Below, one piece after another: positions 1-64,000 of a stretch of DNA of 64,000 nucleotides (within the stretch, counting starts at the first letter, position 1; every line of letters starts with the position of its first letter). The translations under genes and the position numbers were made by a program. The stretch is from Boothiomyces macroporosus (taxonomy: Eukaryota > Chytridiomycota > Chytridiomycetes > Rhizophydiales > Terramycetaceae), in assembly GCA_027604185.1 (NCBI GenBank), contig JADGKB010000019.1, positions 93,432 to 157,431 of the forward strand, given 5' to 3'. Under the pieces are notes generated by a model. The model had not been told where the DNA came from and ran no database searches. It worked only from the letters and a program-made list of their open reading frames with translations.

Positions 1-3000
1 ATTTTGAATTCAAGATTGAATCCACTGACACACTCATTATCACCTCCAAAATCCCACTGATATTCTCCTTTATAGCTTCGCATTCATTTGCAATACTATG
101 CTCATCCTCTGAGTTTAACGTAAGCATAAACTTGCTACGACTCCTTGATTTAGTGTTTCTACTAGTTAGTGGAAAAATACTTCAAGTCAGAGTCCGAAAC
201 TAGATTGAATGCGCTATCAGCCTTTTTCTGCAGTTTGTTTGAAGTTTCTAGTTTTAAAATCATAGGGTTGTGTTGTTGATCTAATGGTGGCCTAAATAGA
301 GCAAATGCATCTTTAAATAGCTGAGAGGCCTTTTTTTCTTGTTCCAGCGTTACAGGTGAATCTGTGACAATCAATTCAAAAAGTATTCCAACCAATGGAG
401 ATAATATCTCCTGTTTACTAATTTCCTCCTTCATCTGGTCAAATTGCTGACACATATGCATCATAAATCGCAAAGTTGTTTGAACAACCATAGATAATTG
501 CTCGATACGTTCCATTTGATCAGCATGCTCTGACTTTGTGCGATCTAGAGCGTTGTAAGTCTTTACGATATTTCTAATTGCGGTGTTTGTGAGACACAAT
601 ATAGTTGGAAGGATTTCAGAACAAAACTTTACATTTCTGACACTTTTTGGATTAAACTTGGCCATTAAATCAGGGACTTCGTAATTTATAACCCAATTGC
701 CATTGATTTCAGTTTGGAAAAATATTGCCCACAATGGAATATACAGCTCTATTAGGTAGTATCTGTTTTGCAGCAGCTTGTACAGTATTGTTAATGCTTC
801 TCTAAACTTGGAGGTTGGGGAATCTGTAGTAACCCATATTTGATAAAATAATCGCAGTGAGGTAACTACAGTTGTAGGGTTTAGTCTTGGAGAAAGCAGA
901 TACGTGATCCACCTTGTTGATAGCCCGCTGACTATATCTTCGCCATATCGAATACCTTCAGAAGTATCTGCAGTGATTTCAAGAAGCATATTGATAAGCT
1001 GATTTCTAATGGTTAAAACATTCGAGGTAGATGCATCATTCTCTTTGTTTGTCCTTACAACATGTGGTAGTGACTGAGGAGAAGTCTGGGCTCTTTGAAG
1101 CTCTGTGTAGTCATTTTCCTTTGGCAATGTGTTAAGAATAAAGGTTCCCAAAACTTTTACAATTTCGGGAGACCAGGCATATTTTGTAAAGATTTTAAGA
1201 TATTGCATCAAATCCGGTAAAAGGCTGGTGTAAATAATTTGTGAATTAAGCATAATTAGGAAGCGTTTGATAATAGCCATTCGATTTAAAGTGGAAATGT
1301 TTTTCTCCTTGTTGGTACTGTGAATAATTAAATCTGAAAGTTGATTGAGATAGTACTTTTGTACATCAATTGATGTTCTCCAAAGATCAATGTCCAAAAC
1401 AAGGTGTCGCAAGGCAGACGGATTATTCACCACCGCATCTTGAGAGTTTTCTAATGAACGGCCCACTAGATTCATGATCACGTCCAAATGTGCGATACTA
1501 ATCAACTCCTTTTTAGATTTTAATATAAAGGATAGCACCTCATACATTTTTCCTCGTTCCATTTCAGCTAAATTTCTCCAACTTCCAGACACACACTCAA
1601 CCAAAATATTTAGTGTGCGATGCAACTCTTCAGACGACTACGTTAAATCCAACTTACAGTGCTATCTTCAATTAGCTTTAGTAAAATTGCACATCCACCC
1701 AAAGTCCATACCTCCTCAACTAGCCGTTTCGGACAAACTGGAATTACCGACCCTTCAATATATGCAAGTGCACTTTTTACATCAGCCTTCAATGCAGGCT
1801 TAGGATAAACTCCATTTATAACAACTTTTTGATTAAAATCGGTAATCTTTTTTCCCAAAGCTGAAGACAATAGCTCGTTTTGCGTAAATCTCGACAGATT
1901 CGTAAAGCTGTTGTGAGCATGAAGGGAGAATAAGATCTTATCTTCTGGAATACCTAAAATATGAGAATTTGTTATTTTTGTTGGGGATAATGCGAATGAA
2001 GCAAGCTGGCTGAATATTGGGGAATGGGTCTCTTCTTCAATTAATTTGTGAGATTTGTTCTGTAACTTGTTATTTCCGACTAAATAGGTAGCCCATGATC
2101 CTTGCCAATTTCCTACATACTCAAATCCAATGTCATATATGATTGCGACTGTTTGGGCATCCAGCACGGCTTCTTCTATTAGGTATGTTGGTCCCAAGTT
2201 AAATATATTGCTGCAGGTTTCATTTGATAGAACGGAATAACCAATGTAGGTTGTAATAGCCCCGATAGTTCCTGGATGGCCAAGATAGCTGCACTTTTCT
2301 TGAACTACCAAATTTCCATTGATGTAAACATCAACTGAACTGGCGGATATAATTGGCTTATGATGAGCCACTGCTAAATGTGTCCACCCCTTTTCTGCAA
2401 AGATTACGTTTTGGAACACGTTATTTGATTTAGCTGTTTTGATGCATAGGTACTTATCTTTATCGATTGATATTTTTAATTTTTCTACATTGTATTGGTC
2501 TACGATCGAGATCAGATCAATCGAATTTTCCTTGTCCAACTTTTCAATTTTGACCCAACACAGGAACGTGTACCCAGTCTGTGGAGGGAAGGATCTTTCA
2601 AAATCTTTAAAAATAATCTTTCCTTTTGTAGAATTAACTGAATGGTCAAAGAGAAAGTAATTTGGCATCTTGCTGTGTTTAAGGGAGTGAAGAATTAGAT
2701 CTAAAAGGAATCCCTTTACTGTATCACTACCTGGAGCATTGTTGGGAATAGGTGGAATAGAATTGGGATTTGACTTTGATTTTTTAGACGTAAACAGACC
2801 ATTTAATTCTCCAGACAAGATATTTGCAACGGCAACTCGAAGTGCGCTTTCTGACATTCCGTGCATCGAGATTTTCTTTACAAAATTCACCAGGAGATTT
2901 GAAACTCGATTTTCCGACTTGATTTCAAAGTTCAATGGTTCGTTAAATTTGCATATCCATCCAATAATTTGCTGAAGGACATTGCTTGAGCAAATCTGAA

Positions 3001-5427
3001 TTAGATTTACCTTATTGGTAAAAGTCAGATTGTAAAAAATTTCCAGGATTGGAATTTGATACTTTGGAATTCCTGGTAACAGAGTAAATATCGATGATAC
3101 AAGTATTGTGTTGTGCATCACTGTATCTGAAGTAAAAGGCGCAGAAAAGCAATCCATTGAAGTGGTTGGATTTCGAGTTATAGACTGGATTATCTCTGCA
3201 CTTTCCAAACATATCGCTACGCACCCGGTAAAAATAAGTTCAACCGTGCTTTCTGACAATAGCATGTTGAAATCATACTCCAATTCGCCGGCTTTAGAAG
3301 CGTTTTCCTTTGAATTTGATATTGATGAATACATTAACAAAAACCATTGGGTTAGAAACTCTAGTTTTTGGATCGAGCCACAGTCGTATTTCGTCAACAG
3401 TGCTTCCTGTAATATTTTGTACCCATTCATACTTTTGAATTTGAATTGCAAGGAAGGAGAGTGTGCTAAAAAATCACCAAGAATTGAAAACAATATTGAT
3501 TTGGACTTTATGTTTTCAGACTTTTGTACATATCGCAGGATTCCCATAAACTCTGGGGTCGCATCCACATTCTCTGGCGACTGGTTAATTAAATGCTTAG
3601 GATTAAATTGAAATTTACCTTTAAAAGAAGCGTAATTCCTTCTTGAAACTCTGGCTCGCATAGAAGAGTGAAATAATTTTCCAGATTCTGCTCTCTAAAT
3701 ATCTGTAACCCCAAACTGGAACAAATTAAACCCGAATATAGTGTCATGAGCAGTATGAAATTTTCCTTGATCGAGTCATCAATGGTAAACAGGGATTTCT
3801 GGTCCGGCTGGGCTACTGCTCTCACCAAGTCTGAAACAGTTGACAACAGTCCCAAATCCCTGAAAATATTTTTCCAAACTGGAGCATTTTCTACCAGGTC
3901 TAGAAATAGTCTACAGATCTTTTGAACTGTTTTCGCAGAAGATTTCCCGTGTAAATGAACCATCAATATTGAAATCTCCTTAAATGGTACGTATTGAATT
4001 GTTACCGAGATATGATACAAGATTGATAGACAAATATCCTGGGATTAAATCCATATACCTGTAATTCGCTATTCAACTTGTCGATATTTTCAACCAACTC
4101 GAAGAAAAGGCTCGATTCGCTTGAAATGATAAAGTAATTAATTGGATTAGATTCGACTAAATCCTGCAACTGCTTCAACAGAGCCACCCGAACCGTTAAA
4201 TCTTTATCTGGCCTGATTGAAAAGAGTGAGAATATTTTAATGCAATTTTTGTTTCTAAATTCCATAGCTAGGTTAATTTCAGACTCACATCCATTGGACT
4301 GTGGCATCATAAAGTCATCTCTTTGAAATGGCGAGTCGCGGTCAAGCTCTACCACTTGTTCCACTAAACTACTGCTTCCTAGAGTACAAAGCTTTCCAAA
4401 TGTTGAACATATACATTCATGAGTCTCTGCGTTGGAGAATTCTAGCAGGGTAGCTATCAATGTATAATTTTTTGAAATGTCAAATAATTTGAACAACTCT
4501 GGATATTTTGTAACAGTGGCTTCCAAAACGTCCACAATAATCTCCAAATATAGTGAAGCAATGTAAGGCTGCTTTCCTTGTGTCGATTCCTCAAGTAGAT
4601 GGATCAAGGTATTAAATTTTCCAGATGTGTCCAACGACATCATCTGGTCCTGTGTAAATCTCTTGCTTTTTATAAAAGTTTTCAAAATTGATAGAACGCT
4701 AAGTCAACAAAAGCGTACTGGACTTTCCATAGTATGTCTGTCTCTCCAGTAAGCACATCAAACAAATCTTTGATGATCAGGTCATCTTTAGTATTCTTCT
4801 TAATCAATCCCTTGATAACATGGGTGAAATTGTTTCCGATTGTTGGGGTTATGTCTTTCGATTCTGCGAGTTCGCAGATAATTGCTACGCATTTTGATAG
4901 GGTCTTTGCTTGATCGAGAGTCGCGATTATCGATTCCTAGAATCAGCTAAATTATACATTATTGCTGCTTAGTAGAACCAGAATCGCATTGATACACAGC
5001 TGTACTATTGTGCCATCGACTGGGGATATGTTGGAGTAAAACACCATTGCCTTTAGCGTAATCTGAATGAATCCTTTGAATTCCAGTTGACTTGCTATTA
5101 AAAGAATCTACCTTTCAGCAATGTGCGTTCCATATCCGATGACTTTGTCGAGAATAGTGTCGATGTTTCTAAGCTTGTCCTAGCGTAAAATTCATAGTAC
5201 TTCCTCCGTCTTGTTTGAATGATTGAATGTAATCATCAAGGACCTGAGATTTTCTTTTGGGCTGTGTTACATTTTGCGTACCTTTGAGATTGGTTGCTCT
5301 GCGCCTTTGGTAACATTGAATTGCTGGCAAACATATTCCCAAAAAGCGATTGCGATTTGTTGCTCTGTTTGGGCTCTTCCTGATTATTCTGCATAAACCC
5401 AAACATATTTTTCATGTTGGAGTTCAT
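1..5427 (-). CDS. WDFY3/ALFY-type BEACH protein, N-terminal part (runs off the window)
   Basis: Giant scaffold protein of the BEACH family; in animals and amoebae ALFY/LvsA act in aggregate autophagy and membrane traffic. Visible here are the alpha-helical armadillo-like N-terminus and a ConA-like lectin (laminin-G-like) domain, about nt 2720-2100, with the motifs YTFLCWVKIE and GWTHLAVAHH, followed by the LIEDS/SSEELHRTLNILVE segment typical of WDFY3. The BEACH and WD40 parts would lie beyond base 1. I join ten exons across nine introns of 19-23 nt, for example 5262-5281, 1638-1657 (GTAAGTTGGATTTAACGTAG), one near 4030-4050 and one of 23 nt near 3595-3620. The last intron near base 160 has two acceptors (19 or 22 nt). 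Start ATG at 5427, only 34 bp from the divergent start of the next gene. The family call is solid; ALFY versus other BEACH subfamilies is less so. Confidence 0.8.
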
Positions 5428-17318: not shown

Positions 17319-18944
17319 TTATTGCATTAAATCTCGTACTCTTGGATCACTTTTTAACAGCTCAACTACTGCTTCGTGCCCATTTTCAAGCGCATTCTTT
17401 AGCGCTTCATTATTACCAGCAGTAGGATCAACTTTATCATTTTCTAATAATAGGTTTACAATATCATAATGTCCAAGTTTGGCAGCAGTCTTGATTGAAA
17501 AGTTGTCTTGTGCCGATGCATCTACTCGTTCATCCTGTAATAGTAATCTCACTATTTCTATAAAATCAGGCTTGGCGCGATTGGCATAGTAGCCATATCT
17601 GTCTGTGAAACATTGCACTGCGTGTCTTATTGCATAGTTTAAATTGGCAGAGGGGTCTACTCTTTTGTCTGCCAGCAGTAGCTGGAAAATGTGCAGGTGA
17701 CCTTCATTTGCAGCTGTTCTAATTGGTAAATTATCATCTGCTGCAATATCAACTCTATCATCATCAATAAGTAGTTTGACGATATCATAGTGTCCATGCC
17801 TGCATGCCCAAACTAAAGCAGCGTTATTTTGAGCCGCAGGGTTAACCCTTTGATCTTTGATGAGTAGTTCCACAATTTCAGTGTGGCCATTATGTGCTGC
17901 TGATTTAACAGCTTTATCATTTTCAGCAGACGGATCAACTTCAGGTAATTGTAGTAGATACCGCACCAAATCTTCATACCCTTTATCTGCAGCATTTTTA
18001 ATCAAAAAGTTGTTATTATCGTTTGCTTTTATCCTTCCATCTTTGAGTAATATTTCTAGAACATTTACTGAAATGGTGTTGGTGATCGCGACGTTGTTTA
18101 ATGAAGGATCCACTCTACCGTCTTCTAGTAAAAGTTTCACAATTCCTGTATGGCCCTTGTTACATGCAAATCGAAGAGCAAGATTGTTACTATCACACGG
18201 ATCCACTCTGGGATCTTGAAGTAAAGTTTTCACAACCTGATATTTACCAGTTTGAGAAGCCAGTATGACCGCTGCATTGTGCATAGTAGACGGATCTACT
18301 CTAGAATCTTTGAGGTACAGCTTTACTAATTCCAAATGCCCATATTTAGCTGCATTTCGGATACAGCAATTGTAATTAACACCTGGATTAACTTGAGGGT
18401 TTTCAAGCAGAATTTTGGCGATTTCAGAGAACCCTCGGTCAGTAGCGATTCGAATTGCCATATTATCGTCGAATGTAACATCAACTGGAAAGTACTTTAG
18501 CATCTGACAGACTGCTGAACTAGACCCGCTTTCAACTATTTTCAAGAATATCCTGTTCAGCTCAACTTTATCCACATTGTCAGTATTTTGAATCAAATCT
18601 ATTGCTATCCAAGGGTGGAGTTTAATTTTCGGTTCCAGCAACTTTTTCAGTCCCAATAATTTTGTGTCGTTGACGATAGTCGGGTATTTTAACGACCTTT
18701 TGAATTGACAATAGTGACCATTCACCAAGCAAAACAGAAATGTATCCTGATTTATATCTTCTGATAGCAGTACCATATATTCGGAAGGATCTTTTGCCAC
18801 TATCAATTCGCACGATTGGTAGTAGTATTTGAATCTGAAATGCGGCAGTGAGAAATCGCTTCTAATTGCGAATTTGATCTGCAGGAATTCCAGGTAATTT
18901 AAATGCTTTATGATTATGCCTAATTCGTTGAGTATTTTTTGCAT
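17319..18944 (-). CDS. Ankyrin-repeat protein 1
   Basis: Single exon, 541 residues. The first 150 residues are helical and of unknown type. From about residue 155 there are roughly eleven ankyrin repeats of the style LLLxDxRVDPSxxNNxAIRxAAxxGH. This pattern marks large ankyrin families in early-diverging fungi and in giant viruses. A second protein of the same architecture lies at 49123-51147. It is a binding scaffold; partner unknown. Its start is 56 bp from the left end of the AT-rich island. No intron found. Confidence 0.85.
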   Translation of the reverse strand: MQKILNELGIIIKHLNYLEFLQIKFAIRSDFSLPHFRFKYYYQSCELIVAKDPSEYMVLLSEDINQDTFLFCLVNGHYCQFKRSLKYPTIVNDTKLLGLKKLLEPKIKLHPWIAIDLIQNTDNVDKVELNRIFLKIVESGSSSAVCQMLKYFPVDVTFDDNMAIRIATDRGFSEIAKILLENPQVNPGVNYNCCIRNAAKYGHLELVKLYLKDSRVDPSTMHNAAVILASQTGKYQVVKTLLQDPRVDPCDSNNLALRFACNKGHTGIVKLLLEDGRVDPSLNNVAITNTISVNVLEILLKDGRIKANDNNNFLIKNAADKGYEDLVRYLLQLPEVDPSAENDKAVKSAAHNGHTEIVELLIKDQRVNPAAQNNAALVWACRHGHYDIVKLLIDDDRVDIAADDNLPIRTAANEGHLHIFQLLLADKRVDPSANLNYAIRHAVQCFTDRYGYYANRAKPDFIEIVRLLLQDERVDASAQDNFSIKTAAKLGHYDIVNLLLENDKVDPTAGNNEALKNALENGHEAVVELLKSDPRVRDLMQ

Positions 18945-19000
18945 TTGGGATTAGGGGTGGAAAAAGTCTGGTGAGCTAAATTTTGGTTCCAATTAGAATT

Positions 19001-22877: not shown

Positions 22878-23035
22878 ACGTTTGGAAATCTTTATTTACA
22901 AAAGATGATATTTTTTGATTAAGAATAAAATATAAAAATATACGGAAATTTACTTAATGTTGTTTGGCTTTTAATATTGGTAGAATATTAATAGGTGTGG
23001 CTTTCGTGGAGTAAAACTTTTCTCAAAAAACAAAT

Positions 23036-24199
23036 ATGCCCAAAGTATCAACTAGAAAATTCACTCTCGAACAAATTGACAAACTTCTTTTTCATTTAAT
23101 TTTATTCATGAATTCAAATGAAAATGATACTGAAATAGAGGAATTAATGGAACTCAAAGCTCACATTTTATCATACAGATACTTTGGACCTTCTGTTTCA
23201 ATTCCTAAATCCTTAGAACACAGGGTTTTACTTCTCACTTTACCAACTAATGAATTCCGACAAGCTTTTCGAATGAACAAGGATACTTTCAACTTTATTC
23301 TCAGCAGAATTGAAGACCATCATATTTTCAGGACCGATAACTATCATAAACAACAACCTGTTTGGGTCCAGTTATTACTTGCATTAGAAAGATTTGGATT
23401 TGATGGTAATGCTTGTTCTGTTGGTAAAGTTGCTAGGAATATGGGTATTGCAAATGGAACTGTAATTTTGTATACAAATCGTGTGATAGAAGCATTGATG
23501 TCATTAGAAACTACTTATATCAAATGGCCTTCTCCTGCTAGACGTAAAAGAACAAGTGACTATTTTGAAGCAAATCACAATTTCAAAGGATGTGTTGGTG
23601 TAGTTGATGGCACATTAGTCAATTTATGTCAGAAACCTTCTATTGATCCAGAGACTTATTGGTCAAGAAAACAAAGATATTCGATGAACGTCCAAATTGT
23701 ATGTAATCATAAACGAGAAATAATTTATTATCAAGTAGGATATCCAGGTTCTTGTCATGATGCTATGTGTTTTGGAAATACTAATCTTTGTAAATACCCA
23801 GAAAGATATCTATCAAATGGAGAATACCTAATGGCAGATGGAGGATATTCATTAAGTCCAAATCTCTTGGTGCCATATAGAAATCCTCAAAGTGAAGAAG
23901 AATTGGAATTTAATGCGAAATTATCATCGGCAAGAATAATAGTGGAACATGTAATGGGATTATTGAAAGGGAGATGGAGTTCATTAAGAGGGCTTAGAGT
24001 ACAATTACAAAAGAAAGAAGATACAGAAAGGATTAATAGATGGATAGTATCATGTTTAATACTGCATAATATGGTGATGAAGTTTAGAGATAACTGGGAA
24101 GAAGAGAATACAGAAGATGAAGTAGATGATATAATAATAGAGAATATTGAGGAGACAGGAACAGAATTAAGAGAAAGGATAAGGGAAATGATATTGTAA
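23036..24199 (+). CDS. PIF/Harbinger-type DDE transposase (HARBI1-like)
   Basis: Intronless, 387 residues. The N-terminal half holds a helical DNA-binding region (ACSVGKVARNMGIANGTVIL). The DDE_Tnp_4 nuclease core follows: first Asp in GCVGVVDGTLVNL, second Asp in YLMADGGYSL, and Glu in ARIIVEHVMGLLKGRWSSL. All three catalytic residues and the SCHDAMCF segment are intact, so the enzyme looks functional. Harbinger elements usually encode a second SANT/Myb-like protein, which lies at 26138-27218. No short inverted repeats tight around this gene were found. Confidence 0.9.
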   Translation: MPKVSTRKFTLEQIDKLLFHLILFMNSNENDTEIEELMELKAHILSYRYFGPSVSIPKSLEHRVLLLTLPTNEFRQAFRMNKDTFNFILSRIEDHHIFRTDNYHKQQPVWVQLLLALERFGFDGNACSVGKVARNMGIANGTVILYTNRVIEALMSLETTYIKWPSPARRKRTSDYFEANHNFKGCVGVVDGTLVNLCQKPSIDPETYWSRKQRYSMNVQIVCNHKREIIYYQVGYPGSCHDAMCFGNTNLCKYPERYLSNGEYLMADGGYSLSPNLLVPYRNPQSEEELEFNAKLSSARIIVEHVMGLLKGRWSSLRGLRVQLQKKEDTERINRWIVSCLILHNMVMKFRDNWEEENTEDEVDDIIIENIEETGTELRERIREMIL

Positions 24200-24457
24200 T
24201 AAATTTCAAAATTAACAAAATTTTATTTGTACTAAGAAATATTTGTTAACGTGTCACCAGCTTATTTTTATTTGGTGTAACATGGCTCGAATGTTTTGTT
24301 TATTAAATAAACCAATCAAATTAAATTATAATGGTCTCGTGAATAAAACGCGTTACTAATCAAAATAAAGATCAATCATATTACTAAAGCACGTGTTAGA
24401 ATATTCTCGGCCAATGTGTATAAAAGGATTAGGTTTTCTACATGATCTAAAAAAAAC
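24200..24457. other. Intergenic stretch before the protease gene
   Basis: AT-rich and non-coding. It contains GTGTCACC...GGTGTAACAT, resembling TGTGTAACAT at 19168 and 20064, and an ACGCGT at 24348-24353, 105 bp before the protease ATG. Confidence 0.3.
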
Positions 24458-25096
24458 ATGAATCGTCATCAATTAATGGAAAAAACTTGCTCTGTATGTT
24501 GTAAAAATGGAGAAGAAATAATTTCACTTGCATCTGGGTTTGTTATTCTCAACAAAGGTCAGTTTATATTCATTACTGCAAGACATGTTTTAATGGACGC
24601 TAAAAAGTTGATGATTGAAAAGAAGTTTCAATCACCGTTATTTTTGGTTTGGCCAGAAAGAAAAATTGAAACTACTCTAGACTCTGAACCTTCAAATTGG
24701 AACTTGAATGAACAACTTGATTGTGCATGGTATAAACTTGAAAATATTGAAGGTTTTGATTGGGAAAGTATTAGAATACCGGTAATGAATGAACTATCTT
24801 TTGGAGATAGAACTTTATGGCATTCTGGTTTTCCTCTAGGCGTGGGAAATGGTGCTTTTTCCAGACCTACTATTGTAACCTCTTTTCGTGTTCATGAGCC
24901 TGGATTTTGTTTCACTGTTGACTCGGGAATGGGAGGATTCAGTGGTGGTCCAGTAGCAGTCTTATCAATCGAACAAGGGATTGGTTTTACCTATGAGCAT
25001 CCTACTTACGGTGTAATTGGTGTTCATACAAGTACGCTTACTAGAAATGCTGGAACTATGGGAAGATTTAGTTTGCTCTATAAAATATTGGAATAA
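24458..25096 (+). CDS. Trypsin-fold serine peptidase-like protein
   Basis: Intronless, 212 residues. Catalytic-triad candidates in the right order: His43 in FITARHVLM, Asp88 in QLDCAWYKL and Ser162 in GMGGFSGGPVAV. It has no signal peptide, so probably acts inside the cell or nucleus; its size fits a stand-alone trypsin-like peptidase_2 domain. The 3' end overlaps the opposite-strand ORF at 25078 by 19 bp. Its presence in a transposon-like island is unusual. The domain call is confident; the substrate is unknown. Confidence 0.72.
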   Translation: MNRHQLMEKTCSVCCKNGEEIISLASGFVILNKGQFIFITARHVLMDAKKLMIEKKFQSPLFLVWPERKIETTLDSEPSNWNLNEQLDCAWYKLENIEGFDWESIRIPVMNELSFGDRTLWHSGFPLGVGNGAFSRPTIVTSFRVHEPGFCFTVDSGMGGFSGGPVAVLSIEQGIGFTYEHPTYGVIGVHTSTLTRNAGTMGRFSLLYKILE

Positions 25097-25257: not shown

Positions 25258-25333
25258 TATTATAATAGAGACAATAATAATTTTTTCCTTTTTAACACAA
25301 AAATATCCTGTCATATATAAATACTTATAAAAT

Positions 25334-31350: not shown

Positions 31351-32697
31351 TTATTCAATTTTCAATTCTTGCACTTGAGGAACACATGGTTTCATAGAAG
31401 CATCCTTTGGGATTGTTGGGTTCATGAATTGGTCGACCAATTCGTCAGTTACAGTAGCGCGTATCTAAGTTACATGAATAGTACCTCTTGAATACCCTTT
31501 ACTAGTTCTTGTACGACAGCAATACATTTTTGCTTAAGTTGGCCGGTGCTCATTTCACCAGAACTATATTGCTTTTCAATCAATGCAAGTTCTTCATCGT
31601 CTTCCAAAAAGAATTTGAGGTACTGGAAGGAAACATCAACCTCACAGTTTCCACCGTGTAATCTGTGCAGTTCAGCGGTATCTTGACCACCGCTGAATGC
31701 GTATTTGTTGATCTTGTTTTTGATTTGGTTTGGAGTGTCATTAATGAAGATGGCTGAGGTAGTAATAGATGCAGACATCTTTGTACCTGGGCCTTGCAAT
31801 GCTGGGAAGAACCTATCGTTAGACTGTTCTTGAGCAACAAATATAGTGAAACTTACTTTGCATGGATCAACGAAGGCTTGTGGTACTTTAACTTTTGTGC
31901 AACTTCTCTAGTTAATCTGAAATATGGATCTTGATCGATTGCGCATGGAACTAGACATGGAATATTGGCAGTTCCAAAGATATGAGGGAATGAGTTAGAG
32001 AAAGATGGCGATGCTTGCACAGATACGAAATGCAATTTGCCGATATTGTCACTGTCATTAAATCCAAAGGTGGCCCTAGATTGGTTGGTAGTAATTGATT
32101 TGGCAACTTTGATGACATTCTTGTAGAATGGCCCACTAACATGAATCAATAATCACCTCATGTAATCCAAATCGGAAAAGATAAAAGTCTTTTTAGGATC
32201 AAATCCAAATGACATGATATCCTTTGCGTTTTCAATGGCGAATTTGTGAGCATCGTCGATTTTCAAGTCTGGGTTGAAGATAAACTTTTCATCATCAGTC
32301 AATTGGATCACTAATGCTGCACCAAAGACATCCTGCAGCCACTTGCAAAACAAGAACGGAATCATGTGGCCGACATGCATGCTTCCACTAGAAGGGCCTC
32401 TTCCAGTATACAAATAGAAGGGCTTTCCTTTTTCATATAAATCTAGAATCTTGTTGAACTCTCTGAAATTAATACAATGCACCTGTGGGAGAAGAACAAT
32501 CCTCTGCGTAAAAACACATGAGGTCTGACTCCAGTAAGTTTTTCCAATCTGTCTAGCATTGGCTGGTCGATGAGTCTGGTTCCAAATTGGTCCACCAATT
32601 TATTGTAATCGATTGCTTGCAGTTTACCGTCGACAATTTCTCCTTGTACTTTCCATGGGTTTACGGTTTGTCCAGTATTTCCTGTTTGTTCTGCCAT
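31351..32697 (-). CDS. WRS1: Cytosolic tryptophanyl-tRNA synthetase
   Basis: Class Ic synthetase charging tRNA-Trp. HIGH-type motif [10 protein letters not shown] after [11 protein letters not shown], and the KMSKS-type motif GTKMSAS. The eukaryotic-type N-terminus [13 protein letters not shown] and C-terminus are complete (about 410 residues). Four introns: 20 nt, 21 nt, 44 nt (31813-31856, the longest seen in the window) and 20 nt. The last exon encodes [14 protein letters not shown] and stops at 31351, next to the island's inverted repeat, so its 3' UTR must lie in the repeat. Confidence 0.95.
31813..31856 (-). other. 44-nt intron in TrpRS
   Basis: GTAAGT donor, CTAACGATAG acceptor; phase 2. 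Its removal joins IHAK to [11 protein letters not shown] exactly as the family requires. Confidence 0.85.
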
Positions 32698-39441: not shown

Positions 39442-40575
39442 ATGACTGCAATTTGCCAAACATGTTCAAAGCCAGCGACACTACGCTGCCCAACCTGCAT
39501 TAAAAAGGGATTGCCTGACGCTCACTTTTGCTCACAGGAGTGTTTCAAATCATCTTGGAATCTTCACAAACTTGCTCATTCACTTACACCAGTTGCAGCA
39601 GACAAGCACAATCCATGGACTAATTATCGATATACCGGATCTCTAAGACCAGTTTATCCGCTCTCTCCTAAAAGAGCTGTTCCAGACTCTATTTTAAAGC
39701 CGGATTATGCGCTAGACCCAAGAGGTTTCTGTTTCTAATTGCAGGATATCCAAAGAGCGAAATGAGTATGCGTGGAAGTACAAAAATTCAAGTTTTGACT
39801 CCGGAAGAGATTGAAAAGATGAGGGTTGTTTGTAAACTTGGAAGAGAAGTCTTGGAAGAAGGAGCCAAGATGATTAAAGTTGGAACTACGACAGACGAAA
39901 TCGATCGAGTAGTTCATGATGCTTGTATGGGTATTTTTTGTGTCTAATTCAGAACGTAACTGCTATCCATCACCATTAAACTATTACAACTTTCCAAAAT
40001 CCTGTTGCACGTCTGTGAATGAAGTTATTTGCCATGGTATCCCAGATCAATATGAACTTCAGGATGGCGATATCTGTAACATTGATGTTTCTGTTTATCA
40101 CGATGGTTTCCACTCTGATCTGAATGAAACTTACTTGGTTGGCAGCGTAGATGAAAATGGTGTGAAGTTGGTAAAGAATGCCAGAAGGTGTCTTGACGAA
40201 GCAATCAAACTGGTAAAACCTGGAGCTTTGTACAGAGATTTAGGGAATACAATCTCCAATATCGCCGAAAGCGAAGGGTTCTCTGTTGTCAGGACTTATT
40301 GCGGACATGGTATCAACTCGTTATTCGTACTTATATTTTAACTCTAGCATGCAGCTCCTAATGTGCCGCATTACGCTAAAAACAAAGCTGTCGGTGTAAT
40401 GAAACCAGGACACTGCTTCACTATCGAACCAATGATTTCCGAAGGTGTTTGGCAAGATGAACAATGGCCAGATGGCTGGACTGCTGTCACTAGGGATGGT
40501 AAAAGATCTGCCCAATTTGAAGAGACTCTTTTGGTCACTGACGATGGCGTTGAAATATTAACAGCCAAATTTTGA
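39442..40575 (+). CDS. MAP1: Methionine aminopeptidase 1
   Basis: Removes initiator methionine co-translationally. The N-terminal MYND-like zinc domain ([30 protein letters not shown]) targets ribosomes. The metallopeptidase core has metal ligands in [20 protein letters not shown], then YCGHGI and FTIEPM, plus a final Glu in QFEETLL. Three introns of 20, 22 and 21 nt. About 355 residues, full length. Confidence 0.94.
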
Positions 40576-45215: not shown

Positions 45216-47320
45216 TTATTGATTTCCATCTTTTGGTGAGGGCCATACAGTTGGTTCATCTTCTTTTGAGTTTGGCGGAGCCCGTGGGTTAGACCCTGGT
45301 CTTGGATAAGGACTGGAATATCCAGCTGGTGCCGGTGGATATCCTGGATAAGGAGGATATCCAGGTGGTGGGAGAGAGTAATTGTACCCATATGGCGGTC
45401 TTGGATATTCTGAATTGTATGAAGCATCCGATGAAGTTGGCGGTCTTGGTCGGTAGTTTGGTGGAGGTGCGGTTGGATAAGGTGGATATTTGTAATAATC
45501 TGGTGTACCAGGTTTGACGTTTGGGCTAGGAGCATGATGAGGAGGATATGGATAAGGTGCTGCGGCATATGGCGCAGAACCAGGAGGAGGTGGTGGGTAA
45601 GGATAGTATCCATATGCTCCTGGAGGAGGAGGAGGGTAGTAAGACCCATATTGGGTAGGAGAAGGTGCTGGTGGACCTCCGGTTGGACTTGGACGGTTAG
45701 TGCCATTCTTTGCAGGTGGTTGAGAAGATGGTGGTTCTAAAGGTCTTGGCAAATATCTTGAACCTAATGGACGAGCAGATGGCTGAATTTCTGGCAGCTT
45801 GTTGGATTCGGATGGTGCATCTCTGGGTCTGGAATCAAGTCTTGGTCTCTTGTTGGCTTGGCTTTCAGGATCCCAGTATTGCGAGTCTTCTGGCGGGAAA
45901 TGATCCGGATTTGCAGAAATTTTAGGTAAATCATAATTTTGGAAATCTCTTTGCTCTGGAGTGTAATTAGTGTTTCTGGTGGTAGGCGATGGAACATTAG
46001 ACTCTTCTTTTGGGAATGGAAATTCGGATTTAACCTTTTCTTTTTCATGATTCAGTGGACTTGGAGGCTCCTGCGGTCTAGGAGGTGCAGCATACTCTCT
46101 GCTAGCTGGTGGATAAGGAGATTCGGCTCCTCTTGGTGGAAACTCTTTAGAGTAAGTGTCTTGTGGACGAGATGAAGGAGAATATTCTTTGGAGTATGGT
46201 TCTGGGGCTCTGGCGCTGGATGGATACTCTTTAGAATATGGTTCAGCAGCTCTTCCAGTAGCAGGGTAAGGCTGTCCTGGGCGGGCAGGATAATCATAAG
46301 GGTAAGGAGGATAGCCAGGATAAGATGGATATGAAGGATAGTGCGGAGTACCTGCTTGAGTTGGGGTTCCATTGTACGGTGTAGATGGTGGATAGTGGTT
46401 GTACATTGGAGGGCGTGAAGGTGGATAATGATTAGAAGAAGTAAATTCAGAGGAAGCGGCAGAAGGAGGGCGAGATTTAGGTGTTTCTTCTGCTGGCTTG
46501 GCTGCCTTCTTTGGTTTCTTTACTCCTTTGCTAGATAAGGACTCTTCGTCGGAGCTGTCAGAATCTTTCTTTCCTCCGATTCTACTATTAGGGAATAACT
46601 AACCTGGATGGTTTTCGTAGTCTCAACTTCAACCCTTGTTCAGCAAAAGATCTGGATAAAAGGGTAGATGATAATTGCGCAGGGAAGCCTAAATTAGAGC
46701 GTTAGTACTTTTCGATGAATACACTTCAAAAGGATCGGTAAAGATACTAGCTTTTTGTAGAACCTTGCTTGGGTTGGCACTTGGATCTTCGTTACCACCT
46801 GAAATTTTGTACAGGGCAATTTTCAATCTAAAGGTTCCTTCTTGTCTGATGGAAATATCTGGGAAAACAAAGAAAGACCCAAAAGAGTTGTCCTTTTCAG
46901 GATCTTTTAGATGATACAAACATGAAGCAATAGAGCCGGTAAGAATACGGGTAGTTCCGTCGGAAAGGAACGACAACTCTTCATACGTTTGATGATCTAC
47001 CAGAGTAGCATATGCAAACAAGAAAGGGTTGTAAAGAAATCGTGATGGATCGATATTTGAGTCTTGTTCGTCATGAATCTTCAGTTCGACTATTGTTAAA
47101 ATCAAAGCAACCTATGGTGGCAGGGTCTAAAGGTTTCTTATCGCCTACGGTTAGAGATGTATTATACCTATTTTATCAGTTATTGAAGAGACTCTGGCAT
47201 GAACTGGGTTCTGCCTCATAATAAGTGTATAGACCCCCTGGATAGGACTTTCTGGTTGCAAAAACTATTGTTAATCACCCCCGGTCTTACCTGATAGTTT
47301 CCTCTTTTTGATTTGACCAT
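45216..47320 (-). CDS. Velvet-domain protein 2 with long Pro/Tyr-rich tail
   Basis: Five introns (26, 23, 22, 20 and 22 nt) assemble a velvet domain: IMRQNPVHARV and DPATIVELKI, then LYNPFLFAYATLVD, SFGSFFVFPDISIRQEGTFR and LLSRSFAEQGLKLRLRKPS. After a Ser/Lys-rich linker the C-terminal 390 residues are almost only Pro, Tyr, Ser and Gly (YPSYPGYPPYPYDYP-type repeats, EPYSKEY repeats). Probably a transcription regulator with a phase-separating or activation tail. Start at MVKSKRGNYQ. The tail is longer than in typical VelB/VosA. It ends 33 bp from the alkyltransferase start. Confidence 0.82.
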
Positions 47321-49122: not shown

Positions 49123-51147
49123 TTAGGTTTCAATAAAGTCGGCTGGTAATAGAGTCAAATCAAAGTTGTTCAAATTGATCTTGGGGTGGCTTACTAATAG
49201 TTGAACGATTTCATGGGCGTTTGCATGAATTGCAACCTGCAGTGCTCTGTTTTCACCTTCACTTGGATTTACTCTTTCATCTTGAAGCAATAGTGCAACA
49301 ATGCGAATATAGTTATCAGAAAACTTTAGATATGATTCACATTCGCATGCGTAAATCAGTGCTTGGTTGTTTGGGATTGCAGGTTCTACCCGTGGATCTA
49401 AAAGCAATCTAGACACAATCGGGTAATGCCCATATTTACACGCAAGCTGTAGAGCTTGATTATTTTCCACGGATGGGTCAATTCTAATATCTTGCAGCAA
49501 TTCATTCAGGATAATGATATTTCCACCCTTACAGCTGTTGAAAAGCGCTAGATTATCCTGGCATGGGTCTACCCTCTCATCCTGCATTAAAATCCTTACA
49601 ATTTCTAGATTTCCCCTATTAGCAGCATCGATAAAGCACCTGTTATTACCAGTAGATGGATCTACTCTATTATCCTGAAGGAGTAACTTTAGAATATCTG
49701 CACTGCCTTGAATACAAGTCGCATAAACGCATATATTCCCTCCGAATGATGGATCAACAGTTTGGCAGGCTAAAAGTAGTTTCGCAACTTGGTAATGGCC
49801 AAAGTTGCATGCTAATTTGATGGCATCATTTTGAGAAGCTGCTGGATCTACTCGCCCATCTTGCAGTAAAATAGAAACAGAAGAATAATGCCCATACTTG
49901 ACAGCACTTTTTAAACAAGCGCTATTGTTATCCGATGGGTCTACCCTTTTATCATTGAGGAGTAAGCGAATCGCTCCATCTTTACCGTTTGAAGCAGCCT
50001 TTCGAAGGGCTTCATTTTTGTTTGCACTGGGATCACATCGAGAATCATTTAGTAGCATATTCAATATTTCTATATTTCCACTTTGAGCTGCTAGAATGAG
50101 CGCCTTGTTGTTGCAGTCGGACGGGTCAACTCTTGAATCTCTAATGAGCATGTTGAATATTTCCAAATACCCATACTCGGCAACAAATGATAGACAAGTA
50201 TTGAAATCTACTGAAGGATCAACTCTGGGATCCATCAGTAGTAGTTGAACGATATCTGTAAAGCCTTTGATACAAGCGTACCTTATTGCAGCATTATCGC
50301 TGTCGCTGGGATCAGATCGTCCATCTAGCAGCAGTACCCGCACTATATCCAAATTACCATTTTGGCAAGCTACTCGAATTGCAATATTTCTATTTGCCTG
50401 TGGGTTTACCCTAACATCCTGAAGCAACAACTTTACTATCTCCAAATGACCACCAATAGCCGCGCTGAACATGCAGTAATTATTATTCGAAGTGGGATCT
50501 ACATTTGGATGGTCCAACAATACTTTAAAGACTTTAAAATTTCCCTTTTGACATGCTGCTCTGATTGCATAGTTGGAATCCACTGACGGGTCCACCCGAG
50601 GGTCGTCCAGCAATAGCTTTACAATTTCGACATTTGCATAGTTTGAAGCACATTTGATTGGGTGATTGTACACCATAGACGGGTCCAAATCGTATTTAAC
50701 TAACAAAAACTTTACACTTTCGATACAACTGAACTCTATACACCGAAGGAACAGCTCTGACATCTTGTTAAACTTTGCAAGGAAATCTTGTGACAATGAA
50801 TGCAGTAGCTTTACTGCGATTATTGGATTGAATTTCAATTTGTGGTTGATGCACGTCGAAAGGACTTGCAGCCTGGTATCCATTGAAATGCACTTTGAAC
50901 CAATGATTTTATCAAACATTTCTGCATGCTGATTATATACAATGAAGGCGAATGATTGATCATTGAGGTACTCCAGAGATAATGTAAAGGCGGGGATTTT
51001 AACAAGCTGGCATGACTCTTTGTACGCTTGAAATGTGAGTGCGGGTCGGGATGGAATATCTTTGATTGCCTTGTATAATTCATAGTAATCGAGTAGCTTC
51101 AAGTGTTGCGTTATCCAACCCAATTCCAATGGTATTTTCTGAAACAT
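49123..51147 (-). CDS. Ankyrin-repeat protein 2
   Basis: Single exon, 674 residues from the ATG at 51147 (MFQKIPLELGWITQHLKL; in-frame sequence upstream has only a non-ATG start). The first 170 residues are helical, possibly F-box-like. About fourteen ankyrin repeats of the form LLLxDxRVDPSxxNNxAL follow. Same architecture as ankyrin protein 1 at 17319-18944, so the two are paralogues on either side of the island. Confidence 0.85.
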   Translation of the reverse strand: MFQKIPLELGWITQHLKLLDYYELYKAIKDIPSRPALTFQAYKESCQLVKIPAFTLSLEYLNDQSFAFIVYNQHAEMFDKIIGSKCISMDTRLQVLSTCINHKLKFNPIIAVKLLHSLSQDFLAKFNKMSELFLRCIEFSCIESVKFLLVKYDLDPSMVYNHPIKCASNYANVEIVKLLLDDPRVDPSVDSNYAIRAACQKGNFKVFKVLLDHPNVDPTSNNNYCMFSAAIGGHLEIVKLLLQDVRVNPQANRNIAIRVACQNGNLDIVRVLLLDGRSDPSDSDNAAIRYACIKGFTDIVQLLLMDPRVDPSVDFNTCLSFVAEYGYLEIFNMLIRDSRVDPSDCNNKALILAAQSGNIEILNMLLNDSRCDPSANKNEALRKAASNGKDGAIRLLLNDKRVDPSDNNSACLKSAVKYGHYSSVSILLQDGRVDPAASQNDAIKLACNFGHYQVAKLLLACQTVDPSFGGNICVYATCIQGSADILKLLLQDNRVDPSTGNNRCFIDAANRGNLEIVRILMQDERVDPCQDNLALFNSCKGGNIIILNELLQDIRIDPSVENNQALQLACKYGHYPIVSRLLLDPRVEPAIPNNQALIYACECESYLKFSDNYIRIVALLLQDERVNPSEGENRALQVAIHANAHEIVQLLVSHPKINLNNFDLTLLPADFIET

Positions 51148-51432
51148 GATCTCTAAATATGAAACTATTTTCCGTACCAAATTGGATAAAGTCAATTTTC
51201 AACCTTCAAGATCTAGCGGGGTAGGGATTGGCGAATTGTATCAATGTCTGTCGATGGCAAACATCCGAATGAGACGTGTAAAGACAGTCAAAGCGAATCG
51301 AGTTAAAGACATTTCAAAAATATTAAGTAACCGTAGTCTTAAGGTAACATTGATTCCAATTTGATAACTGTCCTTCAATGCAATAGTCCGAACAGATTGT
51401 CCGAATTTCGTGTGAAAACTTGCCAAAATAAA

Positions 51433-54400
51433 ATGAAATCTCAAAAGAGCACGCCAATCCAAAAGAAACAAACCACTCTGACAGATTTCTTTTCTCCGAA
51501 AACACCAAAGACCCCGACCCATCCCAAGACGCACAATGTGTTGAGTGATCAGAAGAGTAACTTGCAAACCGAAAAACCTCACAAGAATGTTGAACATCAA
51601 CTTGAAGATCAACCGGAAATTGGAAATCCGGCAAAGAAACACAAGCGCAATGTCATTATCAGCGATGATGAAGGTGAATGCATTTAACCGCAGATATGGA
51701 AGAACCAGAAACTAAAAACACTACTGCTACTCCAAAGATTGACTTGCAAAGCTTCAAAATGACTCCGTCCCCATCCAATCCAAAGTGTAATGGATGATTA
51801 ATTCTAGTTACTCCACGTAAAATTGAAAGTACACCATCGAAATTAAAAACTGCAACGAGAACTGAAAAGTTTAAAGAAAAGAATGAGGAACGATATTCGT
51901 GGCTCTTGGATGTCCGCGACGAAAACAAGCGACCAGTAGGAGATCCAGATTATGATCCAAGAACACTATATGTTCCAAAGAGCGCTTGGAATTCATTCAC
52001 TCCATTTGAAAAGCAGTTTTGGGAAATCAAATGCAAACATTGGGACACTGTTGTATTTTTCAAAAAGGGGAAATTCTTTGAACTTTACGAAAATGATGCA
52101 GATATCGGCCACCAACAATTTGACTTGAAATTGACAGATAGAGTAAATATGCGAATGGTAGGTGTACCAGAAAGTAGTTTCCATCACTGGGCATCCCAGT
52201 TTATTGCAAAAGGTTACAAGGTTGCAAAGGTTGAACAAATGGAAAATGCTATTGGAAAGTCTATACGTGATAAAGAAACTCCTTCAAAGAAGGAAGACAA
52301 GATTATTAGAAGAGAATTGACTTCTGTCCTAACCTTGGGCACAATCGTTGACGGTGGACTACTCACCACCGATATGAGTACATTTTGCATGGCAATTAAA
52401 GAAGATCAACCAAATCCAAATTTGCCGCCTTCATTTGGAATTTCGTTTGTCGATACTGCTACTTCAGAATTCAATGTTTCCTACTTCCAAGATGATTTCA
52501 ATCGGACTCAGTTTGAAACTCTAATTACCCAAATAAAGCCAAAGGAGCTTGTCTTAGAAAAGGTTCAATATACTAATGCAAGGGAGGAATTTCAAAAGAA
52601 AGCATGAAGATTTTGAGAAACAATTTGGATAATCCACTCTACAACTTTTTAACAAAACAAACAGAATTTTGGAATGCTGAAATTACCACCGACGAATTAA
52701 ATAGAGGTATCTATTTCAATGGCGAGAATGATATGGATGTCGATATGGATGACTCTTTAAAGTTTAGTATTTGCTATTAATTATAGAGTGTTGGCCAGAG
52801 GCAATTCAGAAAATTAGTCAAGAACCAGTAGCGCTTTCTTCTTTCGGAGGGCTCCTCTCTTATTTACGAACAGTAAAACTCTTTAATATGTAGTTGAAAT
52901 TAGACCGCTCTCTCGTGTCTGCTGGAAATGTCCACACTTATGACCCCGTAAGATCGTCTAGCAGTCTCATTCTCGATGGACAGACTCTGATAAACTTGGA
53001 AATATTCCAAAATACCAATGACGGTGGAGAAAAGGGCACCTTGTTCAAACTTTTAAACCATTGTGTTACTCCATTTGGAAAAAGAATGTTCAAAAGGTGG
53101 TTATGCTATCCATTGAGATCTGTTGAAGCAATTAATCAGCGTTTGGATGCAATCGAAGACTTAAATGAAATTTCAGCGGCACTTGGTGATATAACCCTAA
53201 CTCTAGATGAACTAAAACTGTCAATGAAGAAGCTTCCAGATCTGGAGAGGGTAATATCAAGAATCCACTCTGGAAATTGCTTGGTCAAGGATTTTGTCAA
53301 CGCATTGAAAGCGTTCGAGTCAATCAAAGATATCCTCTCAGAACTTCAGCAACATAAATCGAATTTCAAGTCAAAAGCACTTTTAGCCATTTTGAATTTC
53401 AATTTCCCGTCAGTTCTTGAAAAGTCTATTGAATATTTCAAGGATTCTTTCGACCAGAAATTGGCATTTGACACTGGAAAAATACAGCTTAACAAAGGGT
53501 ATGACGAAACGTATGATGAAATGGTGAAAACCATCAATGAAGCAGAGGGAAAACTCGAACAGTACAAGAAGGAATGCGAAAAGAAAATAGGTTGCAAAAT
53601 TGTCTATAAAGATATTGGAAAGGAAATATACCAATTAGAAGTCCCGCTAAAACAAAAAGTTCCAAATGATTGGAGCTCCATGTCAAAAACCAGTAACGTA
53701 AATCGTTACTACACATCAGCTTTGCGAAATTTGATCAATGAGTTGCTTGAAGCTAGAGAGCATTGTGAAGCAGCAATGAGAACCATCAAACTGCAGGTTT
53801 ATCAAAAATTCGATGAACACTACAACGACTGGTAAGCGGTGACTAATCTAAGGATGAAGATCATCAGCAACATTGCACAATTAGATTGTTTATTCAGTCT
53901 TGCACAATGTACGAAAAACCTCCAAGAACCAGTATGTAGACCAGAATTTGTTGAAGGGGGTGTTAGCATTTTGGAAATGGAAGATATGCGCCATCCATGT
54001 GTGTTGGAGTCTATTGGATCAGACTACATCCCAAATGATGTTAATTTAGGAGGGGAAAATTCGACTATGATACTTCTTACAGGGCCAAATATGGGTGGGA
54101 AATCCACCCTCTTAAGACAAGTAACTCCTAACTAAAGTAGACTTGTATTGCCGCGATCATGGCACAGTTGGGATGCTTTGTCCCTGCTAGCAAATTCAGA
54201 TTGACCCCATTCGATAGGATTTTCACTAGGATTGGAGGTATCTAGTATCTAAAATAGCAAATGATAATATTATGGCTGGCCAATCTACATTTATGGTTGA
54301 ATTGTCAGAAACGTCCAAGATCTTGAAAGACGCTACTCCTCGATCCTTAGTCATTCTCGATGAACTAGGCAGAGGAACATCAACATTTGATGGCTATGCT

Positions 54401-54799
54401 ATTGCCTATGCAGTATTATATCACCTGATCATCAATGTTGGCTGTTTGGGTCTCTTTAGCACGCATTATGGAACTTTGACAAATGAATTTGAAAGCAACC
54501 CATTAGTATCCCTTAAATACATGAGCTTCCATGTAGATGAAGAGAGTAAGCAGGTTGTGTTCTTGTACAAACTAGTTGATGGGAAATGCCCAGAATCATA
54601 TGGTATGAATGTGGCAAAAATGGCCAACATTCCTGCATCCATTGTAGCTTATGCAGAACAAGTAGCTGAAGAGTTTGAAAAGACTCAAATACTAAAGGCC
54701 AAGGAAGTTGAAGCTGATCTTAGCCTCACTACATTGGCTTCTTTCAAAGGCATCGTGAATGGTGAAAGCATTTCAAATATTTGGAAAAGTTTGCAATAA
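51433..54799 (+). CDS. MSH6: DNA mismatch-repair protein MSH6
   Basis: MutS-alpha subunit. The N-terminal PCNA-binding PIP box QTTLTDFF is at residues 13-20. MutS domain I carries the mismatch-reading motif [10 protein letters not shown] (Phe-x-Glu). After the connector, lever and clamp domains comes the ATPase: Walker [11 protein letters not shown], Walker [15 protein letters not shown] and FSTHYGTL. Eight introns of 20-21 nt, one of which (GTTCAATATACTAATGCAAG) explains an apparent frameshift at [13 protein letters not shown]. About 1060 residues, complete. Confidence 0.95.
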
Positions 54800-62375: not shown

Positions 62376-63781
62376 TTATAGATATAAACCTTCTGGAGTT
62401 CCTTCGTTTTTGCGGTATAATACCTTTTCTTTAGCCTTTCTAAAGTCATCAGCTAAAACTTTCATCCTTCTTTCTCTCAGAGCAAGCAAACCAGCTTCAG
62501 TACATACAGCCTTGCATTAGCAATTATTACCTTGATATCAGCACCAGACAAGTCATCTTTAGCCATAACAAATTCTTCTAAATCGACATCATCACCAAGA
62601 GTCATTCTGCTGGTATGAATATTAAAGATTCTTCTCTTTGTTTTTACATCTGGAAGTGGGAATTCAATTTTTCTGTCAATTCTACCAGGACGAATGAGAG
62701 CAGGATCTAATGATTCAATGCGATTGGTAGCCATGATAACTTTGACATCGCCTCTGGAATCGAAACCGTCAAGCTGATTGAGTAATTCCAACATGGTTCT
62801 TTGAATTTCTCTTTCACCACCAGAGGTAGAGTCATAACGCTTTGAACCGACAGCATCGATTTCATCGATAAAAACAATGGATGGTGCATTCTCTTCAGCA
62901 ACTCTGAACAGCTCTCGAACCAACTTTGGACCATCACCTAAATATTTTTGGATTAATTCGGAACCGACGATACGCAAAAAGGTGGCCGATGTTTGATTAG
63001 CGACAGCTTTAGCCAAAAGTGTTTTTCCTAGAAATCAAAACTGAAATACCTGTACCAGGAGCACCATACAAAATTACACCTTTTGGTGCTTTGATACCCA
63101 TTTCTTCGTACAATTCAGGGTGCGTAAGTGGCAATTCAACAGCTTCCTTGATTTCTTGAACTTGGGCCTCTAAACCACCGATATCTGCATAAGATTCTGT
63201 AGGTGCTTTTTCCAATTTCATTACAGATACCATTGGATCAACATCATCCTGCAAAACCCCGACAATCGCAAGTGTCTTGTGGTGTAGCAACACTGAACTT
63301 CCAGGCTCCAACAAGTCTTTGTCGACAAAGGACATGATGCTAACATAATATTCTGGTCCTTGGTTTGTAGAGATAATCGCATGGTCATCATCAATAATTT
63401 CTTCCAAGTTTCCAACATTCATAGGAGATCCTCTTAAATCATCAATCTTTCCACGCTCTTCTTGGTTCTTTTCTTCCTGTGGTTTCAATCTTTCCTGGTT
63501 TTGAACAAATTCCTCCTCCAAGAGCAAATAGTCCTTGATTCTTTCATTCTTGAGGAGCTTCAATTTACATCTTGTGGTTGGGAATACAGCAGGGAGCTTG
63601 GTAGTTGAATCTGGTCCCTTCTTCTTTTTCTTTCCTACACGAGTTGGAACTGGTGGTTCCCACTTTTTCTTTTCTTGCTGATGGTTAAGTAATAGTAACC
63701 TTTTCATCCTTTTTATCTCCTGGCGGTCCGCCTGGTAATCCCGATTGATTTTGTCCCTGGTGTTACTCAACTATTTACCAT
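62376..63781 (-). CDS. RPT2: 26S proteasome regulatory ATPase RPT2 (PSMC1)
   Basis: AAA+ subunit of the 19S base. The N-terminus after splicing is MGQNQSG, the N-myristoylation motif of Rpt2, followed by [20 protein letters not shown], a coiled coil and an OB domain. Walker A GAPGTGKT, Walker B IVFIDEID, sensor MATNR and arginine finger [12 protein letters not shown] are present. The C-terminus EGLYL is the gate-opening tail. Four introns of 22, 22, 22 and 20 nt; the first follows immediately after the ATG, so the first coding exon is three bases. Complete, about 440 residues. Confidence 0.96.
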
Positions 63782-64000
63782 TTGAGATTGAAAATTTTCT
63801 ACAAGGGTTTCTGAGAAAAAATTACAACTGGAAAAATGGTCTACAGATGGTGTCTCTCTGATACAAGAATAAAATAAATCAGCTGTACGACTCTCCTGGA
63901 TACATTCCAGAATACCTGATTACTCATCTTGAGCTAATTTCTCCCCCCACACAACTAGTAGAATCAAGACCCTTATAAAATCAATCGCAAAACTTTTGGA
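63782..64000. other. Upstream region of RPT2
   Basis: About 220 bp to the window edge; no coding sequence recognised. Confidence 0.4.

Follow-up and report, generated by a model that had tools for sequence, protein, structure and literature searches.

Introns of about 20 nucleotides (nt) are the norm in few described genomes. In the chlorarachniophyte nucleomorph, a relict endosymbiont nucleus with approximately 300 genes, introns are 18-21 nt long (PMC10245619), and those of the heterotrich ciliate Stentor are 15-16 nt (PMC10245619, PMC9505925); the Stentor paper also lists small nuclear RNAs, U2AF1, U2AF2 and SF1 (PMC9505925). Mikrocytos mackini has 224 introns of 16-17 nt and a reduced spliceosome for which 17-19 proteins were found (PMC10245619). 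The introns of Nyctotherus (21-29 nt) and Paramecium (20-33 nt) tend to carry in-frame stops or to have lengths not divisible by three, and in Nyctotherus no branch motif was found (PMC2633312). Here a 64,000-nt stretch from the chytrid fungus Boothiomyces macroporosus (Chytridiomycota, Rhizophydiales, Terramycetaceae; C19:93432-157431, hereafter the window; assembly 15.2 Mb, 216 contigs) is analysed together with other parts of the same genome. Judged from the DNA, it is very probable that this is nuclear sequence in which GT-AG spliceosomal introns of 19-23 nt are the ordinary introns.

In the published passages drawn on here, the nucleomorph comes nearest, with almost equal length and a similarly narrow spread, whereas the present introns belong to a 15.2-Mb fungal assembly. 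Stentor likewise has tiny introns as its norm, but those described here are about 5 nt longer and occur in an unrelated lineage, and the head-to-tail stacks of introns reported below are not mentioned in the passages on Stentor (PMC10245619, PMC9505925). Very narrow lengths and a conserved motif are shared with the mikrocytids, which are described as parasites with a reduced spliceosome, in contrast to the thousands of introns, SF1 and U2AF2 found here. Tiny introns run throughout the nuclear genome in Nyctotherus and Paramecium as well; unlike the Nyctotherus introns as described, about 70 percent of the present ones have TAAC or TAAT (TAAY) at a near-fixed place. The original prediction for this DNA regarded tiny-intron genomes as few; its list of precedents omitted the mikrocytids with their introns of 16-17 nt (PMC10245619). 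Its view that a fungal genome uses such introns throughout agrees with the source of the DNA, a chytrid.

Length and composition of the introns

The main sample (264 kb) consisted of the window and 20 stretches of 10 kb each from 20 contigs. Genes were sought without supervision by a program that took its codon score from long open frames and could place gaps of 14-80 nt freely. Training with GT-AG ends gave 369 gaps, 363 of them at 18-24 nt with a mode of 20 nt (154). The score gain on training was about 1500 units for GT-AG against about 150 to 340 for seven decoy end-pairs, and only GT-AG, of the eight pairs trained, yielded a strong length peak; the biggest single-length pile among the decoys was 22 of 225 (TG-AG, 26 nt), and none had a comparable peak. 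When all lengths were weighted equally and motifs were not modelled, 18-24 nt still accounted for 99 of 178 GT-AG gaps, the remainder being thinly spread. When all 256 end-pairs were scanned with a weak coding model in the window only, 15 of 20 GT-AG gaps lay at 17-22 nt, a clustering absent from the 11 other end-pairs printed. A simple motif count on both strands gave 15-24 matches per length at 19-23 nt, 4-6 at 15-18 nt and 6-15 at 24-30 nt. In a further 21 loci (66.6 kb), fetched for other reasons, 92 of 94 gaps were 19-24 nt long and two were longer; five overlapping loci had been left out of this set, and two that were kept overlap by about 0.3 kb.

Genome-wide, the pattern GTAAN{7,10}TAAYN{2,3}AG has 7361 matches against 1576 for its reversed form, used as control. 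Since 104 of 328 modelled introns fit this pattern, extrapolation implies roughly 18,000 tiny introns in the genome. Intron density in the gene models is 334 per 201 kb of coding sequence. Narrow lengths near 15-30 nt as a genome-wide norm, the property that defines tiny-intron genomes, are thus found here. For the window itself about 85 introns, nearly all of 19-23 nt, had been predicted; the trained run gives 88 at 18-24 nt and non-overlapping gene models keep 77, of which 75 measure 19-23 nt and the other two 18 and 44 nt. The two introns quoted in that prediction, GTAAGTTGGATTTAACGTAG and GTAACTCCTAACTAAAGTAG, each occur once, at 1638-1657 (minus strand) and 54121-54140 (plus strand). Its wider range of 17-26 nt holds as a statement that tiny introns are the norm, but the core range is corrected to 19-23 nt.

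Among the 363 short introns of the main sample, GTA donors, as predicted, are present in 322; position +4 is A at a frequency of 0.57, +6 is T at 0.58, and +5 is divided between T (0.38), A (0.24), G (0.19) and C (0.19). Acceptors are TAG (240) or CAG (66) in 306. The predicted TAAC or TAAT near the AG is present in 255, and in 215 of these the second A lies 5-6 nt before the final G. In the kept models this A usually stands 13-15 nt after the first G and 5-6 nt before the last, and the extra bases of longer tiny introns are added on both sides of it. The untrained set of 99 agrees with this consensus. All three phases are used, as had been claimed (146, 126 and 91 in the main sample; 32, 29 and 16 among the 77 window introns). 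Retention would introduce an in-frame stop in 226 of the 363, a frameshift in 113 and neither in 24, a split biased by the greater difficulty of detecting stop-free introns of length divisible by three.

Several observations weigh against the interpretation of these introns as the norm. The longest gap modelled was 160 nt, which bounds what could be detected. GT-AG ranked only third of 256 by raw score in the weak-model window scan, and training of the length model sharpened the peak, the flat run being noisier. A TAAY match is missing from 108 of the 363 introns, so that the predicted motif is common without being universal. At least one likely stop-free intron of length divisible by three, in the MSH6 gene, was missed by the models, and the true share of this class is therefore not given. 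Cryptic tiny introns are only modestly depleted in coding sequence (for score 3, 93 against 118.3 with a standard deviation (sd) of 9.5; for score 5, 14 against 19.4 with an sd of 4.4), and the gene finder itself may be the cause; with so weak a signal, avoidance in exons was dropped as proof.

A rival proposal is that the tiny introns are real but form one class, beside common long introns that the method overlooks. Two longer single introns, one of 44 nt in TrpRS and one of 48 nt in SF3B1 (L047 from base 2405, plus strand), do exist, with protein continuous across each, and they rule out a hard upper limit on intron length. Loosening the penalty led to 33 proposed single gaps in the main sample (26-150 nt), most of them without other support, and when lengths up to 160 nt were weighted equally, 38 long gaps appeared, many resembling intron-exon-intron merges. 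At a moderate penalty, however, 360 short gaps stood against seven of 26-150 nt; two of the seven are stacks and a third resembles a merge of intron, exon and intron, and one of the two long gaps in the 21 further loci is again a stack. With gaps modelled up to 160 nt, a common class of long introns is very unlikely. The 44- and 48-nt introns both begin GTAAGT, as do 19 of 328 tiny introns; with two cases, a link between this donor and longer single introns is suggestive only. The 48-nt intron is predicted to fold into a 7-bp hairpin (-5.5 kcal/mol), and the 44-nt intron could be read as nested.

Splicing signals and machinery

The introns of 19-23 nt have the GT-AG ends of the U2 type, and the TAAY present in 255 of 363 is a branch motif able to pair with U2. 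The conserved G at +5 that is usual in U2-type donors was not found; it is not enriched among modelled introns (66 of 328) and stands at 0.14 in the untrained set of 99. This trait is not defining in every lineage. Candidates for U1, U2 and U6 all carry the usual recognition sequences: U1 begins AUACUUACCUG and scores 68.8 bits, just below the gathering score of 69.5, both copies of U2 found contain GUGUAGUAUCUG, and U6 carries ACAGAGA.

An assignment of the introns mainly to the minor, U12 type would gain from the T or C that mostly precedes their TAAC/TAAT motifs, the U12-type branch site also containing TTAAC. The donor consensus GTAANT nevertheless differs from the U12 donor, and the branch A lies 5-6 nt from the final G; judged from these intron signals, the assignment is very improbable. 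We put as little trust in removal by a non-spliceosomal route such as DNA elimination or ribosome bypassing. Such systems elsewhere do have short inserts in all phases, and this likeness speaks in its favour; against it stand the GT-AG ends, the TAAY near the acceptor and the conventional U1, U2 and U6, and DNA elimination would in addition require a second version of the genome, for which no search was made.

The domains of SF1 and U2AF2 also count in favour of spliceosomal introns. The spliced U2AF2 model has an arginine-serine start, a tryptophan motif, which we take to be of the kind used for U2AF1 binding, and three RRM stretches, and has five tiny introns of its own; read exon by exon it scores 230.7 bits, below the curated cut-off of 310.3. 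In SF1 a helix-hairpin, a KH domain and zinc knuckles are recognised, and its introns measure 24, 22 and 21 nt; SF3B1 was seen as its N-terminal part. The prediction had pointed to U2AF, SF1 and SF3B1 as proteins to inspect for loss or change; U2AF2, SF1 and the N-terminal part of SF3B1 are present and conventional-looking, so that their loss does not explain the small introns. No U2AF1 was recognised by eye among 17 zf-CCCH matches, 12 of which were given as loci. RED (PF07808) gave no match, but neither did any control, and the result carries no weight.

It may be that the major spliceosome removes the tiny introns by intron definition, with SF1, U2AF2 and U2 reading a fused branch-acceptor block. 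Because the G at +5 is not enriched, it is proposed that the fixed spacing to GTA would replace part of the usual pairing with U1, the reading of the donor being relaxed at +5.

Protein continuity and deposited sequences

Comparison with solved structures is in agreement with the proposed splicing. None of the 11 introns of RPT2, MetAP1 and TrpRS coincides with an alignment gap, although gaps occur elsewhere. The alignment of spliced RPT2 to its solved counterpart (12bm_B) spans the whole protein and contains two small gaps, both away from the four introns, and MSH6 aligns with its solved homologue 2o8b_B over residues 140-1031. The MSH6 model has seven extra residues relative to P0002, P0003, P0005 and P0008, and relative to 2o8b_B, where the DNA reads GTGATATAACCCTAACTCTAG (53186-53206). 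This is most likely a ninth MSH6 intron, free of stops and divisible by three in length. Both the gene models and the deposited B. macroporosus MSH6 (P0004) treat it as coding, for seven residues, so that agreement with P0004 is no proof at that place and introns of this kind are undercounted.

The nearest deposited proteins are from Boothiomyces and Terramyces. P0004 agrees at the first three MSH6 introns, leaves out the exon that separates introns four and five, and ends near the sixth modelled intron. MSH6 of JEL0866 (P0001) reaches the end of the gene, although 18 residues are missing from it in the neighbourhood of the likely ninth intron. For RPT1, the protein of Boothiomyces sp. JEL0838 is identical to our partial model over all 302 residues. 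The deposited B. macroporosus RPT1 (P0151) agrees at four of five introns, including a 41-nt stack, but is short of 16 residues at the fifth intron and also lacks its end. Deposited Boothiomyces proteins therefore agree with most of the splicing, and the public annotation holds many tiny introns and misses others. As a separate observation, both deposited B. macroporosus proteins, P0004 and P0151, are truncated or short of residues beside tiny introns. That assembly or sequencing errors, or pseudogene decay, cause the apparent interruptions has next to no probability, nothing having been found in its favour beyond the data being one draft assembly of 216 contigs, whereas GT, TAAY and AG recur at narrow spacing in the interruptions, which occur in essential genes, and the JEL0866 (MSH6) and JEL0838 (RPT1) proteins are joined identically at these places.

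Table 1. Genes, tiny introns and intron stacks (window positions, or locus and position where a locus is named)
Feature	Position	Strand	Support or remark
Gene model w0, 1699 aa, 8 introns of 20-23 nt	162..5427	-	Laminin_G_3 found; BEACH domain not seen in two exons scanned
w0 intron, 20 nt, GTAAGTTGGATTTAACGTAG	1638..1657	-	sequence match, gene models
w0 intron, 23 nt	3596..3618	-	gene models
w0 intron, 20 nt	4039..4058	-	gene models
w0 intron, 20 nt	4699..4718	-	gene models
w0 intron, 21 nt	4937..4957	-	gene models
w0 intron, 21 nt	5091..5111	-	gene models
w0 intron, 21 nt	5180..5200	-	gene models
w0 intron, 20 nt	5262..5281	-	gene models
Tryptophanyl-tRNA synthetase (TrpRS), 4 introns	31351..32697	-	gene models, structure alignment
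TrpRS intron, 20 nt	31465..31484	-	gene models, alignment
TrpRS intron, 44 nt, GTAAGT donor	31813..31856	-	protein continuous across; sole window-model intron above 23 nt
TrpRS intron, 21 nt	32136..32156	-	gene models, alignment
TrpRS intron, 20 nt	32463..32482	-	gene models, alignment
Methionine aminopeptidase 1 (MetAP1), 3 introns	39442..40575	+	gene models, alignment
MetAP1 intron, 20 nt	39725..39744	+	gene models, alignment
MetAP1 intron, 22 nt	39931..39952	+	gene models, alignment
MetAP1 intron, 21 nt	40327..40347	+	gene models, alignment
Velvet-domain gene, 4 introns (23, 22, 20, 22 nt)	45216..47219	-	gene models
MSH6, 8 modelled introns of 20-21 nt and one likely 21-nt intron	51433..54799	+	models, alignments
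MSH6 intron, 20 nt	51674..51693	+	models, comparison with relatives
MSH6 intron, 21 nt	51787..51807	+	models, comparison with relatives
MSH6 intron, 20 nt	52563..52582	+	models, comparison with relatives
MSH6 intron, 20 nt	52767..52786	+	models; JEL0866 and Terramyces P0002 proteins continuous
MSH6 intron, 21 nt	52873..52893	+	models; JEL0866 and Terramyces P0002 proteins continuous
Likely ninth MSH6 intron, 21 nt, stop-free, divisible by three	53186..53206	+	7-residue insert relative to relatives; outside the 77
MSH6 intron, 21 nt	53832..53852	+	models; P0001 and P0002 continuous
MSH6 intron, 20 nt, GTAACTCCTAACTAAAGTAG	54121..54140	+	sequence match, models, relatives
MSH6 intron, 20 nt	54238..54257	+	models, comparison with relatives
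26S proteasome RPT2, 4 introns	62376..63781	-	gene models, structure alignment
RPT2 intron, 20 nt	62511..62530	-	models, alignment
RPT2 intron, 22 nt	63028..63049	-	models, alignment
RPT2 intron, 22 nt	63678..63699	-	models, alignment
RPT2 intron, 22 nt, immediately 3' of start codon	63757..63778	-	models, alignment
Three-unit stack, 19 nt each, methyltransferase gene	L007:1313-1369	-	stretch not chosen for stacks
Stack 21+22 nt, MCM7	L009:89-131	+	stretch not chosen for stacks
Stack 21+19 nt	L033		stretch not chosen for stacks
Stack 21+20 nt (41 nt), RPT1			among eight chosen loci; protein continuous across
Stack 20+22 nt, cytochrome c peroxidase-like gene			among eight chosen loci; protein continuous across
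Four-unit stack, 82 nt	L053		among eight chosen loci

The name BEACH had been given to the gene at 162-5427; it is unconfirmed, as the only domains matched in the two exons that were scanned are Laminin_G_3 and, weakly, TPR_RNF123. Elsewhere in the window a DDE_Tnp_4 transposase reading frame without introns (23015-24199, plus strand) lies beside the AT-richest part (24001-28000, GC 0.299), and a cysteine-rich ephrin-receptor-like frame of 491 codons (28132-29607, plus strand) has no introns in the models. Two long ankyrin-repeat frames (17319-18950 and 49123-51198, both minus strand) have none or one modelled, in contrast to the intron-rich housekeeping genes. On other contigs, paired matches about 42-45 kb apart (C20:74242/119309 and C20:43123/88190, both 45,067 apart; C36:45043/87227; C2:305867/348463) suggest large duplications or assembly doubling.

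Stacks of abutting introns

A new feature, as read from the sequence, is that some of the longer gaps appear to be exact head-to-tail stacks of two to four tiny introns separated by zero-length exons. Eight loci (L048-L055) contain 13 stacks, but they were picked for being stacks and are uninformative on frequency. The raw parse of 16 stack sequences gives seven of two units, seven of three and two of four; one of the three-unit parses includes a piece of 4 nt, and 21+20 is the better reading of it. At score 3 there are four candidate pairs with zero gap, where gaps of 1-40 nt average 0.85 pairs and Markov sequence gives 0.33; at score 5 there are two against 0.125, and at score 7 none; one of the four (L016) is not modelled in a gene as a stack. 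Genome-wide the stack pattern has 53 matches against 35 in the control, which is weak as such. The signal lies in the pairs with a branch motif in both units, which number 19, against approximately 1.6 expected from composition; by our own arithmetic, roughly 4 would be expected from random placement of introns. One L048 stack begins with two identical 19-nt units, a sign of tandem duplication. When the L052 gene was compared with known structures, the alignments shown covered only its ankyrin part and have no bearing on its stacks.

Stwintrons and recursive splice sites likewise involve several splicing reactions at one place, and recursive sites also involve zero-length exons. In stwintrons as described, one intron is nested within the splice signal of another; in the 16 stacks no internal intron interrupts an outer splice signal, the units abutting head to tail and each retaining a donor and an acceptor. 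Removal of a stack of two to four units might proceed unit by unit or in one event. A tentative and rather doubtful extension is that introns here multiply and grow in whole units of 19-22 nt, to give arrays in which as many as four introns abut across zero-length exons, in some cases through tandem duplication, and that these would be removed unit by unit because the spliceosome needs a full GTAAGT donor to deal well with gaps longer than about 25 nt.

No report of tiny introns in a chytrid was present among the literature matches listed, from a search that left most subscription papers and bioRxiv preprints outside its reach; the passages of one intron reconstruction show that it covers two Chytridiomycota species (PMC8476143). 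In the accounts drawn on here, tiny introns as a genome norm otherwise come from ciliates, a nucleomorph and reduced parasites, and a chytrid would offer a test bed for minimum intron size. Gene annotation is affected as well, because deposited proteins of the species are broken at some tiny introns. The conventional U1, U2, U6, SF1 and U2AF2 of this fungus suggest that introns can shrink to 20 nt with all of these parts retained, and the spacings of 13-15 and 5-6 nt give an exact geometry for structural models of early spliceosome assembly. The stacks, if read correctly, would provide a direct test of intron gain and of the order in which adjacent introns exit.

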